Part shown: piece after piece, positions 2,737 through 14,752 of the stretch
Position numbering within the stretch: position 1 is the stretch's first letter
Layout of the letters: every line of letters starts with the position of its first letter
IMG/VR virus record: IMGVR_UViG_3300025083_000212
Span: 1-25,184 of that record
Direction: 5' to 3' (one strand)
DNA: 25,184 bases
Source of the DNA: a virus
Made by a program: the position numbers and the translations under genes
The notes under the pieces: model-generated
Seen by the model: only the letters and a program-made list of their open reading frames with translations
What the model was told of the DNA's origin: nothing
Databases searched by the model: none

Positions 2737-3069
2737 TTAATTTTGAAAGGTTTTAATGAAGTACTCAGCGTCAATTACTACTAAAGGTTTCTTACCATTT
2801 TTTTTGATAATAACAATAGGTTCATAATCCCCGCAATTGGACGCTGATTGTTCATATGCGTCCCAGATATTTAGTTTCTCCACGTTCTTGCATTCTATAC
2901 TATGAGGGAACTTTTGTCTAGCTGCTCTTGCCATAATGAGATCTTCTCCACCAGCACCCATAGACCGAGATTCAATGTCCTCAGGATGTACGCTAAGATG
3001 TTCGATCAATTTATCTCTTACCCACTGCTGTAACTTCCTACCCTTTGCCTTAGCAGATTGTGGTTTCAT
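2737..3069 (-). CDS. PD-(D/E)XK-type endonuclease, 110 aa
   Basis: I start the gene at the ATG at 3069 (MKPQSAKAKGRKLQQW), because the upstream in-frame ATGs at 3087/3084 fall inside a terminator-like hairpin (3073-3102). The ATG at 3069 has GGGGG eight bases upstream. A basic N-terminal helix is followed by SRSMGAGGEDLIM and then SIECKN. Asp43 and Glu59-x-Lys61 fit the PD-(D/E)XK nuclease core. Such small nucleases in marine T4-like phages are usually annotated simply as endonuclease; a junction-resolving or recombination role is possible because no gp49 homologue is seen here. Expression appears late and hairpin-controlled. Confidence 0.8.
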   Translation of the reverse strand: MKPQSAKAKGRKLQQWVRDKLIEHLSVHPEDIESRSMGAGGEDLIMARAARQKFPHSIECKNVEKLNIWDAYEQSASNCGDYEPIVIIKKNGKKPLVVIDAEYFIKTFQN

Positions 3070-3102
3070 AAAAAATACCCCCATCATATGATGAAGGTAT
3101 TT
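3070..3102 (-). terminator. Terminator hairpin overlapping the endonuclease ribosome-binding site
   Basis: On the minus strand a near-perfect inverted repeat runs from AAATACC to GGTATTT around an inner CATCATATGATG palindrome, with two G-U pairs in RNA. It is followed by six T at 3075-3070. It ends directly at the ATG at 3069. The GGGGG ribosome-binding site (3078-3082) is in the 3' arm, and the T-run is the spacer to the start codon. It would end the gp61-nrdA-nrdB transcript and hide the site in any read-through RNA. Confidence 0.75.
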
Positions 3103-3105
3103 AGA
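3098..3105 (-). promoter_or_regulatory. Possible late promoter box (TCTAAATA)
   Basis: The minus strand reads TCTAAATA, one change from TATAAATA, overlapping the outer 5' arm of the terminator hairpin. With T4-like spacing, transcription would start near 3092, inside the 5' arm, leaving at most a weak five-base stem and exposing the GGGGG ribosome-binding site. Confidence 0.45.
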
Positions 3106-9889: not shown

Positions 9890-9911
9890 AAAAAAGGGGA
9901 GTATACTCCCC
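9889..9911 (-). terminator. Rho-independent terminator
   Basis: On the minus strand a self-complementary 16-mer, GGGGAGTATACTCCCC (9911-9896), is followed by seven T (9895-9889). It lies 27 bases after the stop of the 67-residue gene and ends the 11098-9939 unit. Confidence 0.85.
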
Positions 9912-11676: not shown

Positions 11677-12887
11677 TTGTCTCCTGCTACCCAGTCTTTA
11701 GATACATTAAAGTTTGCTACGCTGAATGACAAACGATCAACTAACTTCACTGCGTTGGTTCCATTACTAACAGCAACATATCCCTCTGGTGCTGTGACTT
11801 CATAACCACCTTCTGTCTTAAGATAGGTTCCAATACGCTCACCCTTCTCAAGTTTGCGAATGAATACTAACTTCGCATCCTGCAATAACTTATATAGTTG
11901 TACTGTGCTATTAAGAGGGTTCTTATTCTTTTCAATAAACTCCAGACCATCAAACATCTTCTTGAGTTTGGTTGCTTTTGCCTTCGGAGTTTTTACTTTA
12001 TCAACTGCCTTCTGACATTCAGTCTCAAAATATTTTGTGAACTCTCTATAGAATGTATTGGGTTCAGGAACTGTTCTACCCTGACGAACATATGTGTTAA
12101 AGAAAATCTTTAATCGTGGTCCTACAGTCAACTGATCCTTAAGAACAATCTGTGCTGCTACCTCATCTAAGAATGATCCTGCTGTGCGAACATGACTAGG
12201 TGCCTGAGTTTTGAGTTGCGATAACTTATTCTTCTCAGTAGGTGTAAGAAGAGTATCCTTTCCTAACTGTCCTGTCTCGGCACTCAATACTAGAATGTCA
12301 TCACTCTTCTTTAATTTACTTACATCAAATCCGAACGAAGCATTCATACTGCTTACATCAGATCCTGAATAAGATGTATGAAATACTACACCGATCTTTG
12401 CTTTCTTTGCCTTCTCATATAGATCACTATCTTCTGGTATGGCATAGGTAATGGTGTTAGGTTGAAATGTGATACAAGTCTTACCATCAATCACCTGAGT
12501 TTTCTTATCATGAGTAAACAACAGGTCACCCTGTGCTACACCACTGATACCTAGTGCTGGAAAATATTTTAATGATGCTTTTAATTTCTCTACCAGACCA
12601 GCAGCATGACCGTGGTTCCTTTCAATATCAGCATCAACATAATTGATCTTCGCATCTTTATTGAAGACTGATTTAGTTCCAACAAAGAAGTTATCTGTGC
12701 CTGGATAGTTGCCACAGAAAATAGCAGGGGCACCATCCCATTTTGTAGTGATCTTAAAGTTATTATTGCCACCACCAGTAAAAGTTTTTGCTAGTAAATC
12801 TAAAAACTTAAATGCATCAGAAGCACCAGCAGCTCCGTCAAATAATATACTATCTTCTAAGTGTTCTAAGTGTGTGTTCTTACTCAT
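11673..12887 (-). CDS. Ligase-like KxDG protein, 404 aa
   Basis: Residues 49-52 are KWDG within TTKWDGAPAIFCG, matching motif I (KxDG) of covalent nucleotidyltransferases (DNA and RNA ligases, capping enzymes), where the Lys becomes adenylated. Further downstream, FFVGTKSVF, ISGVAQGDLLF and KIGVVFHTSYSG are positioned like later motifs of that fold (Ia/III, IIIa and IV), but this assignment is by eye. A C-terminal Lys-rich region (KAKATKLKKM) could contact nucleic acid. It overlaps both neighbours by ATGA. I recall such proteins as uncharacterised in marine T4-like phages. Ligase activity is inference; T4-type gp30 and Rnl genes are not otherwise seen here. Confidence 0.75.
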   Translation of the reverse strand: MSKNTHLEHLEDSILFDGAAGASDAFKFLDLLAKTFTGGGNNNFKITTKWDGAPAIFCGNYPGTDNFFVGTKSVFNKDAKINYVDADIERNHGHAAGLVEKLKASLKYFPALGISGVAQGDLLFTHDKKTQVIDGKTCITFQPNTITYAIPEDSDLYEKAKKAKIGVVFHTSYSGSDVSSMNASFGFDVSKLKKSDDILVLSAETGQLGKDTLLTPTEKNKLSQLKTQAPSHVRTAGSFLDEVAAQIVLKDQLTVGPRLKIFFNTYVRQGRTVPEPNTFYREFTKYFETECQKAVDKVKTPKAKATKLKKMFDGLEFIEKNKNPLNSTVQLYKLLQDAKLVFIRKLEKGERIGTYLKTEGGYEVTAPEGYVAVSNGTNAVKLVDRLSFSVANFNVSKDWVAGDK

Positions 12888-14320
12888 GATCCTGCAATGT
12901 ATTCAGATAAACCTTTTTGTTTCTCCACATAATTACGAATAGCAGTGCCACCCCACTCAATCTTATGTCTGAATTTAATTAGATCATAAACTTTATTATC
13001 ATTTTTATTCTTAGCACTAATGATAACTGCTGGCAGTGGTGCTCCCACAGTAGGATCTCTAGGAACTGATTTGTGATATGTCGATGCCAGTTCCAGATTT
13101 GCTTCTACATCCAAGTCTGGTCTACCGTTGAGTGCTACATGTAATTTAGAGAAATCAAACTTCTCATAACCACTACCAATAATCTCTACGAGTTTTACAT
13201 TCTCCTCATTTTTTGTAGCGAAGTCATCAAGTGTTTCCACAAAATGTCTTCTCCAAGAAGAGTTACCAAACTTATTCTGTATTCTGTTATGCGCCCAGAG
13301 ATAGATATCATTCATCACAGCAGCAGCATGATGCTTAGTTGTTTCCCAATCTCCGTCATTATGTTTGGCGTAGATTGCTTCTAGTTGAACGTTATTGATT
13401 AGATTTTCATCTAAGATAACACCCCAGAAATTATTAACAGTTTGGATATCCCATCCACCAACCTGAGCGAATTGATCTACCTCACGCTTGAGTGAGATCT
13501 GAGTGATAGCTAATTTTCTATTACCATATCTACCAGGAATTGTTATATCTTTCTTCCCATCAATCCTCACAAAGATATCAACCTTTGTCGTTAGTTCACC
13601 ACCAACACCATCAGCTTCGACTTCAATTTTATTGTAAACTCTATTATGATACATGACATTTGCTAACTGAGAAATTTCTCTGGAGTTAGCATACTGAACG
13701 CATGGCGTCATGATACTCATGCGATCAGCAATACCTGATGCCTTCTCATCATTATCTAAAAGTTGCTCGCAAAAAACCAATGACATATTGATGGGCGATA
13801 ACTTAATAGTCAGTTCAACATCATCATCAGGGATCATCTTAGCGGACTCCCTAATAGTTTTAAAATTAGGAGACTTGAATGTATTAAAACTTCCTTTGTG
13901 ATCTGTAGACAGTGTTCTATATTGCTTTTCTAGAATATTTAAAATATCCCTTTCATTAATTCTTTTTCCTTTATTAACAAAACGAGCAGTAATCGCTGCT
14001 GCTAGAATTCCTTCTGCAGCATTACCCATATTATATCTTGCTCTACCACCACCACTACCAACTCCATATCTAATTTTTAGTGTAGTGCGAGAATTTCTTT
14101 CCAAGTCTCTTTCACTAAGACCAGATGCCTGTGCTATCTCAGGATGTACTTTAACTTCATTGCCACCTCTAGCATCATTAAGGATCAGGGGGCGATCCAC
14201 ATTACGATATCTTCCAGTAAGGTATTCATAAAGTTCTACAATCAAACCAATCTTATCAGCTTTATAACTAGTTACTTGATATATTTCATCCTTAGTTCTC
14301 GGACGAATAGAATATGCCAT
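12884..14320 (-). CDS. Hypothetical protein, possible PD-(D/E)XK-type nuclease, 478 aa
   Basis: I do not recognise the family with certainty. The protein has an early Gly/Arg-rich stretch (GVGSGGGRARYNMGNAAEG), with Glu103 in the helix-like part after it. Around residues 245-280, TKVDIFVRIDGKK and then ITQISLKRE resemble the D...xK core of PD-(D/E)XK nucleases (Asp248 and Lys278), though the (D/E) position would be Ser276, which is atypical. The C-terminal half is mixed and ends with an Arg/Lys-rich section (YDLIKFRHKIEWGG). It is first in a three-gene overlap chain with the ligase-like and HxGH genes, so a nucleic-acid processing role is plausible. GGGGG seven bases before the ATG is its ribosome-binding site, inside a hairpin. 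Confidence 0.7.
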   Translation of the reverse strand: MAYSIRPRTKDEIYQVTSYKADKIGLIVELYEYLTGRYRNVDRPLILNDARGGNEVKVHPEIAQASGLSERDLERNSRTTLKIRYGVGSGGGRARYNMGNAAEGILAAAITARFVNKGKRINERDILNILEKQYRTLSTDHKGSFNTFKSPNFKTIRESAKMIPDDDVELTIKLSPINMSLVFCEQLLDNDEKASGIADRMSIMTPCVQYANSREISQLANVMYHNRVYNKIEVEADGVGGELTTKVDIFVRIDGKKDITIPGRYGNRKLAITQISLKREVDQFAQVGGWDIQTVNNFWGVILDENLINNVQLEAIYAKHNDGDWETTKHHAAAVMNDIYLWAHNRIQNKFGNSSWRRHFVETLDDFATKNEENVKLVEIIGSGYEKFDFSKLHVALNGRPDLDVEANLELASTYHKSVPRDPTVGAPLPAVIISAKNKNDNKVYDLIKFRHKIEWGGTAIRNYVEKQKGLSEYIAGS

Positions 14321-14321
14321 T

Positions 14322-14341
14322 AAAAAACCCCCTTACGGGGG
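14322..14341 (-). terminator. Terminator hairpin overlapping the ribosome-binding site of the 478-aa gene
   Basis: On the minus strand CCCCC, a GTAA loop and GGGGG (14341-14328) are followed by six T (14327-14322), one A and the ATG at 14320. It would end the gp43-uvsX-gp41-mazG transcript. The GGGGG arm is also the ribosome-binding site of the next gene, and the T-run is its spacer. Confidence 0.8.
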
Positions 14342-14349
14342 TATTTATT
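14342..14349 (-). promoter_or_regulatory. T4-like late promoter box (AATAAATA)
   Basis: AATAAATA on the minus strand, one change from consensus, directly abutting the hairpin. T4-like spacing puts the transcription start near 14336, in the loop, so late RNA would lack the CCCCC arm and expose GGGGG. Confidence 0.6.
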
Positions 14350-14752
14350 AGAGATCTCCTTCTACTCGGTTCTCTGAATGATTAACATCAAACTCACCAC
14401 CAGGGTAACGAGCCATCAGTTTGTGAACGTTCATCTCAATAACTTCATCGAGAGAAACATTCAGACCCATACATGCTTGAGCGACATACCACATGATGTC
14501 TCCAAGTTCACGTTTGAGATGAAACAGATTTTCATCATTGACAGGTTTACCTTGGAAGATAATCTTCTTAACGATCTCAGTAAACTCACCTGCCTCAGCA
14601 GACATTCCTACAGCAGCAGTAAGTAATCTCTCACTAGGAAACTCTTGTCCTTCTAGTTCTTGAAGACGATAGACAAATGCCTCAAAGTCTTTGCTTTGTT
14701 CTGATGTAACAGCATCAACGAACTCAAGATATGCTTTGGTGTTTACAGTCAT
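14348..14752 (-). CDS. mazG: MazG-type nucleotide pyrophosphohydrolase, 134 aa
   Basis: MazG proteins hydrolyse nucleoside triphosphates to monophosphates; in marine phages they may recycle host nucleotides. The four-helix signature is present: GMSAEAGEFTEIVKKI (Glu53, Glu56) and later RELGDIMWYV (Glu82, Asp85), the Mg-binding acidic residues. The 134-residue length fits the single-domain phage form rather than the double-domain bacterial enzyme. It is the last gene of the gp43-uvsX-gp41 unit, three bases after the helicase stop, and the terminator hairpin follows at once. Substrate preference (dGTP/dCTP type or (p)ppGpp) cannot be read from the sequence. Confidence 0.92.
   Translation of the reverse strand: MTVNTKAYLEFVDAVTSEQSKDFEAFVYRLQELEGQEFPSERLLTAAVGMSAEAGEFTEIVKKIIFQGKPVNDENLFHLKRELGDIMWYVAQACMGLNVSLDEVIEMNVHKLMARYPGGEFDVNHSENRVEGDL

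Follow-up and report, generated by a model that had tools for sequence, protein, structure and literature searches.

How can one short run of bases close one operon and open the next in a compact phage genome? The question is raised by a junction in a 25,184-base IMG/VR virus fragment (the window, i.e., the whole stretch of DNA that was analysed), whose DNA relatives are T4-like cyanophages and which encodes a mazG-like protein, a gp41-like helicase, UvsX, NrdA and NrdB, a primase and a RusA-like resolvase. A box of the late-promoter type, a hairpin and a T-run stand there between the mazG-like gene and a gene for a 478-aa protein. It is likely, in our view, that this junction is a late promoter nested in an intrinsic terminator, the 3' arm of which doubles as the ribosome-binding site, and that the late start frees the gene.

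Anatomy of the two junctions in the window

Positions 14349–14318 of the minus strand (site 1) read AATAAATA, CCCCC, GTAA, GGGGG, T6, A and ATG without interruption, letter for letter as given in the preliminary description. The late-promoter-type box AATAAATA (14342–14349) lies 21 nt from the ATG and is overlapped by the TAA stop codon (14350–14348) of the upstream ORF, the mazG-like pyrophosphatase gene (14348–14752). The 5' arm of the hairpin, CCCCC (14337–14341), is followed by the loop GTAA (14333–14336) and by the 3' arm GGGGG (14328–14332), a Shine-Dalgarno-like run 7 nt 5' of the ATG; the double role of this arm, in the terminator and as ribosome-binding site, had been proposed before and we read the sequence likewise. 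The T6 run (14322–14327) completes the intrinsic terminator sequence, and a single A (14321) separates it from the ATG (14318–14320), which is retained in orthologs. All these features are on the minus strand, as is the downstream ORF, the 478-aa gene (12884–14320, phrog_3560). The stem of five G-C pairs and one A-U pair, the loop GTAA and the T6 directly 3' of it have the sequence pattern of an intrinsic terminator (computed fold −12.5 kcal/mol, z −2.5). The plus strand scores too, as a weak terminator. Searches of Pfam and NCBIfam assigned the 478-aa protein no function; the gene is presumed late, and this is an assumption because the protein has no known function.

The motif NATAAATA has been published as the late motif of S-PM2 (PMC2984593) and CTAAATA as that of Aeh1 (PMC1524935), and the late boxes of T4 lie at −13 to −6 (PMC1524935). 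In 15 related genomes and the window, the two 7-mers with the highest enrichment 12–36 nt before ATGs are ATAAATA (17.6-fold) and CTAAATA (14.5-fold), and the distance from box to ATG peaks at 19–25 nt in the relatives. Site 1 has a TATAAATA/NATAAATA-type match at this promoter distance, as expected of a T4-type late promoter. Homologs of gp55 were found in seven of the seven relatives tested, and of gp33 in four of the seven, some of these relatives being fragments. With the box of site 1 at −13 to −6, the CCCCC arm occupies −5 to −1 and the predicted +1 is G14336, the first base of the loop, and the entire C arm would thus be missing from late RNA. The preliminary description had suggested a start near 14336 with this very consequence, and the published T4 spacing places the predicted +1 exactly there. 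The +1 predicted in this way is a purine for 25 of the 27 hairpin-bearing boxes described below; in boxed genes without a hairpin it also prefers purines, C being used in only 5%.

In T4 late promoters the bases that follow the box are A/T-rich (PMC2988020), a typical feature which is not known to be strictly required. Site 1 has no such stretch: its bases −5 to −1 are all G or C, compared to an average of 1.3 of 5 for the other late boxes. Since such a G/C run is unusual for late promoters, the late promoter of site 1 may be weak.

The same design had been claimed for positions 3067–3105. A second composite (site 2, minus strand, 3105–3067) does occur there, before the RusA-like gene, but its box is CTAAATA, not ATAAATA. 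The order is TCTAAATA, CCTTCATC, ATAT, GATGGGGGTATTT, TTT (3072–3070) and ATG. The stem of the hairpin (3073–3102, 13 bp, loop ATAT, GGGGG in the 3' arm) extends into the box TCTAAATA (3098–3105), the fold is stronger (−15.3 kcal/mol, z −5.3) and the predicted late +1 is A3092. At both window sites, the predicted +1 falls within the 5' arm or directly behind it, and late RNA is thus predicted to be without the 5' strand of the helix. The true ATG of the resolvase gene (2737–3069, 110 aa) is at 3067–3069. The longest RusA-like ORF (2737–3087, minus strand) starts within the hairpin, whereas the start that orthologs conserve is the ATG at 3069; automatic annotation may misplace the start of this gene.

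When the window was searched for a box, a hairpin with at least four G-C pairs, a T-run and an ATG, exactly two sites were found, and none of 300 dinucleotide-shuffled windows had any. The bare 7-mer ATAAATA shows no enrichment in the window, with 8 copies against an expectation of 7.6. The eight copies are all on the coding (minus) strand, though their total is at chance level. A possible weak third case precedes the 96-aa DUF6450 gene (minus strand, 1797–1828: AATAAATA, AAAGAGC, CTA, GCTCTTT, ATTC, ATG). It is not claimed here: it reaches −6.9 kcal/mol locally, and another fold is preferred when the flanks are included.

Recurrence and conservation in related phages

A search of related genomes for the composite of box, hairpin and ATG, as had been advised, revealed a strong enrichment directly before ORFs. 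Hairpins were detected and gene starts assigned with scripts of our own, and the ORFs used were unannotated. In 27 of 400 boxed genes, a hairpin of −11 kcal/mol or lower stands between box and ATG, compared to a mean of 6.0 and a maximum of 10 in shuffled leaders; it is absent from more than 90% of late-box genes. Among terminators directly before an ATG, 23 of 37 have a late box within the hairpin or next to it, vs 8 of 257 other terminators (Fisher 3e-18), which links the box to pre-ORF hairpins. In terminators elsewhere the box, if present, is mostly 3' of the terminator, and the classic order of terminator then late box is frequent too, with 36 boxes at +30 to +45. The pre-ATG terminators belong to 24 families, ten of which have a boxed member (binomial 0.002, a modest value, and many of the sites are orthologous). 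The composite recurs before at least ten gene families. Under a strict screen, the boxed pre-ATG terminators numbered 0 of 0 in T4 and 0 of 1 in RB49.

The IMG/VR sequences were scanned with the pattern TAAATA, CCYCC..GGRGG, T-run and ATG. Of 145 matches, 138 open an ORF, and these represent 13 families. On the contrary, none of the 46 matches opens an ORF when the same hairpin is preceded by AAAATA or ATAATA.

The predicted +1 lies within the hairpin for 25 of the 27 boxes: in the 5' arm (11 boxes, mostly with two or three bases of the arm left), in the loop (3 boxes) or in the 3' arm (11 boxes). The last group corresponds to a second layout, in which the box is in the loop, e.g., before gp13 in S-RSM4 and ACG-2014h. 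In most families the 3' arm is GGAGG or GGGGG, 5–10 nt from the ATG. The composites of S-H25, P-RSM4 and S-RIM8 keep the box, the hairpin and the T-run, but their 3' arm is pyrimidine-rich and has no ribosome-binding site. The translational half of the design is therefore not universal.

Orthologs of the RusA-like gene (n = 80) were gathered with the true gene start as query. The hairpin and T-run are present in 41 of the 48 boxed leaders and in none of the 32 unboxed ones. In 25 aligned leaders, the TAAATA letters are invariant and the T-run is nearly so. The stem covaries: 13 cells are changed on both sides, a number which was reached in none of 500 shuffles. One base of the box is unchanged in eight leaders despite the loss of its pairing partner, which indicates that the box is conserved for itself. 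Close homologs of the 478-aa gene keep the upstream element; in remoter homologs (51–60% identity) CTAAATA is kept, and it lies in the loop of a hairpin or has no hairpin. The same mazG 3' end, by which the upstream gene was recognised as mazG, and the same box/terminator cassette are followed by several different genes; for this reason the cassette may be a place at which downstream genes are exchanged.

The composite had been expected at early-to-late borders, and the expectation fits where annotation exists: a non-late gene (mazG, nrdB, psbA or psbD) is upstream and a virion or late-type gene downstream. In S-PM2, nrdB is followed by the composite and then by the RusA-like gene; in S-H25 and P-RSM4, psbD or psbA precedes a gene of a head-protein family; in the present case, mazG precedes large proteins without assigned function. 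The sister genes with a box include those for a major head protein and for gp13, the neck protein; a head-tail adaptor and a homolog of a tail-fibre assembly protein are encoded by others. In the cultured isolate S-PM2, the element (AJ630128, 115171–115202) is located between nrdB and S-PM2p152; its box is GATAAATA and its hairpin has a CCTCC arm.

Proposed mechanism and competing explanations

We propose that a polymerase coming from the upstream mazG operon would copy both arms of the hairpin. The hairpin and the U-run would terminate most of the upstream-derived RNA, and in the remaining read-through RNA the GGGGG ribosome-binding site would be locked away by pairing. At the late stage of infection, the sigma factor of the phage would start RNA at about 14336, past the C arm. 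Because the start is after this arm, the late RNA would form neither the terminator nor the lock, and the 478-aa gene would be expressed. In computed folds, the probability that the GGGGG of site 1 is unpaired is 0.001 in read-through RNA and 0.60 in late RNA; the values for the G-run of site 2 are 0.002 and 0.53, respectively. That the G-run is folded in read-through RNA and is followed by a T-run terminator favours a two-layer block which late initiation releases. The sequences themselves show the anatomy, its recurrence, the covariation of the stem and the link between box and pre-ORF hairpin, whereas the start at 14336, termination in vivo, the translational block and the late timing of the 478-aa gene are inferred. 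S-H25, P-RSM4 and S-RIM8 have retained the terminator although their stems contain no ribosome-binding site, an argument for termination as the more general component of the mechanism.

The arrangement could merely save space, a late promoter overlapping the terminator of the upstream operon in a compact genome, with no lock, so that the coincidence of G-run and ribosome-binding site is a by-product. The composites of these same three phages, which have no Shine-Dalgarno sequence in the 3' arm, are what this explanation expects, and the frequent order of terminator then late box also speaks for it; we nevertheless consider it unlikely, as a GGAGG or GGGGG arm at 5–10 nt from the ATG is the rule in most other families, and as T4 gene 49, the T-run of which is much weaker, has the same layout. 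Alternatively, the hairpin may act only as a translational lock, as in T4 e, soc, 49 and I-TevI, the T-run being an incidental A/T spacer. This class is published (PMC3014915, PMC2988022) and the leader of gene 49 has TTTATT at this place, but the T-run is nearly invariant across RusA-like leaders and is present even where the stem contains no ribosome-binding site, which makes a lock alone quite improbable.

The two remaining explanations deny the promoter or the design itself. If AATAAATA were the mere A-rich flank of a bidirectional terminator, one would expect AAATA to pair with TATTT, which it does in some leaders, and the other strand to terminate as well, which the weak score of the plus strand allows. 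The altered flanks AAAATA and ATAATA are however never found before an ORF in the scan described above, the box is invariant even without a pairing partner, and remote orthologs keep CTAAATA in a loop or without any hairpin. The altered-box scans and the invariance of the box thus rule out this explanation, to which we give very little weight. A chance meeting of an A/T-rich octamer with a hairpin, which the chance-level count of ATAAATA alone in the window might suggest, is statistically refuted by the shuffled windows, the conservation in relatives and the enrichment before many gene families, and its probability is negligible.

We return to the proposed terminator that would contain a late promoter and be dismantled by its own late start. 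It is an even question whether such self-dismantling terminators form a general compact operon junction in marine T4-like phages, with the late box at the 5' base or in the loop, and with a version for host-type sigma-70 extended −10 promoters too. A sigma-70 extended −10 sequence (TGTGATATAAT/TGTGATATACT) adjoins the 5' arm of a pre-ATG terminator in S-PM2, Syn9 and S-RSM4. In S-RIM8, the related TATGATATAAT adjoins the 5' arm of a pre-ATG terminator; the nesting is the same, with an early-type promoter.

Relation to known phage systems

T4 genes 49, e, soc and I-TevI already illustrate the principle. The leader of T4 gene 49 (endonuclease VII), AATAAATACCCTTATCTATTTAAGGTAAGGGTTTATTATG, resembles site 1: AATAAATA is followed by a C-rich arm, a loop, a G-rich arm which is the ribosome-binding site, a T-rich spacer and the ATG. 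It differs in its spacer, TTTATT, which makes a poor terminator, and site 1 precedes a different gene, after mazG. The product of gene 49 is a Holliday-junction resolvase, like that of the RusA-like gene at site 2, and the leader design is common to both. Endonuclease VII and RusA belong to different protein families.

In T4 e, soc, I-TevI, I-TevII, I-TevIII and segB and in Aeh1 mobE, the late start avoids a hairpin that sequesters the ribosome-binding site (PMC3014915, PMC2988022). In these genes, as proposed here, the ribosome-binding site is inaccessible in early or read-through RNA and the late start drops the 5' strand of the helix. By computation, the cyanophage element behaves as the e, soc, 49 and I-TevI class does: the ribosome-binding site is paired in the long RNA and free in the late one, and the predicted +1 has the corresponding spacing. 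The idea is therefore not new in principle, because its translational half is established T4 biology. The T4 and Aeh1 cases are however described as translational only, whereas in the cyanophages the hairpin doubles as a canonical intrinsic terminator, is met in many families and also exists with the box in its loop. What is new is the terminator T-run, the spread over ten gene families and the box-in-loop form. No prior description of a late promoter inside a cyanophage terminator was found in the literature searched, which left out most subscription papers.

The published late promoter of the cyanophages S-PM2 and Syn9 (NATAAATA; PMC2984593) has this motif too, likewise at the distance from the ATG that suits a promoter; in the relatives of the window CTAAATA is an equally enriched variant, as in Aeh1 (PMC1524935).

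If the proposed mechanism is true, a single element of about 30 bases ends an early or metabolic operon, bars the translation of stray RNA and starts a late gene, and the early/late switch needs no factor beyond the late transcription machinery of the phage. This would explain how late genes are insulated from the transcription of mazG, nrdAB and psbA/psbD in compact cyanophage genomes. The element would also allow one to search marine phage contigs for late genes, and the trick of T4 gene 49 would be a recurrent design among phages whose hosts differ greatly. Phage isolates such as S-PM2 are a ready test system for the element.

Like the usual operon border of T4-like phages, the composite closes one operon and opens the following one, but the usual order is terminator then box, whereas in the composite the box is inside the terminator or 5' of it. 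The classic order is also seen in the window, on the minus strand at 9911–9882 and 22227–22178, where a strong hairpin and a T-run are followed by a late box (TATAAATA and CATAAATA, respectively).
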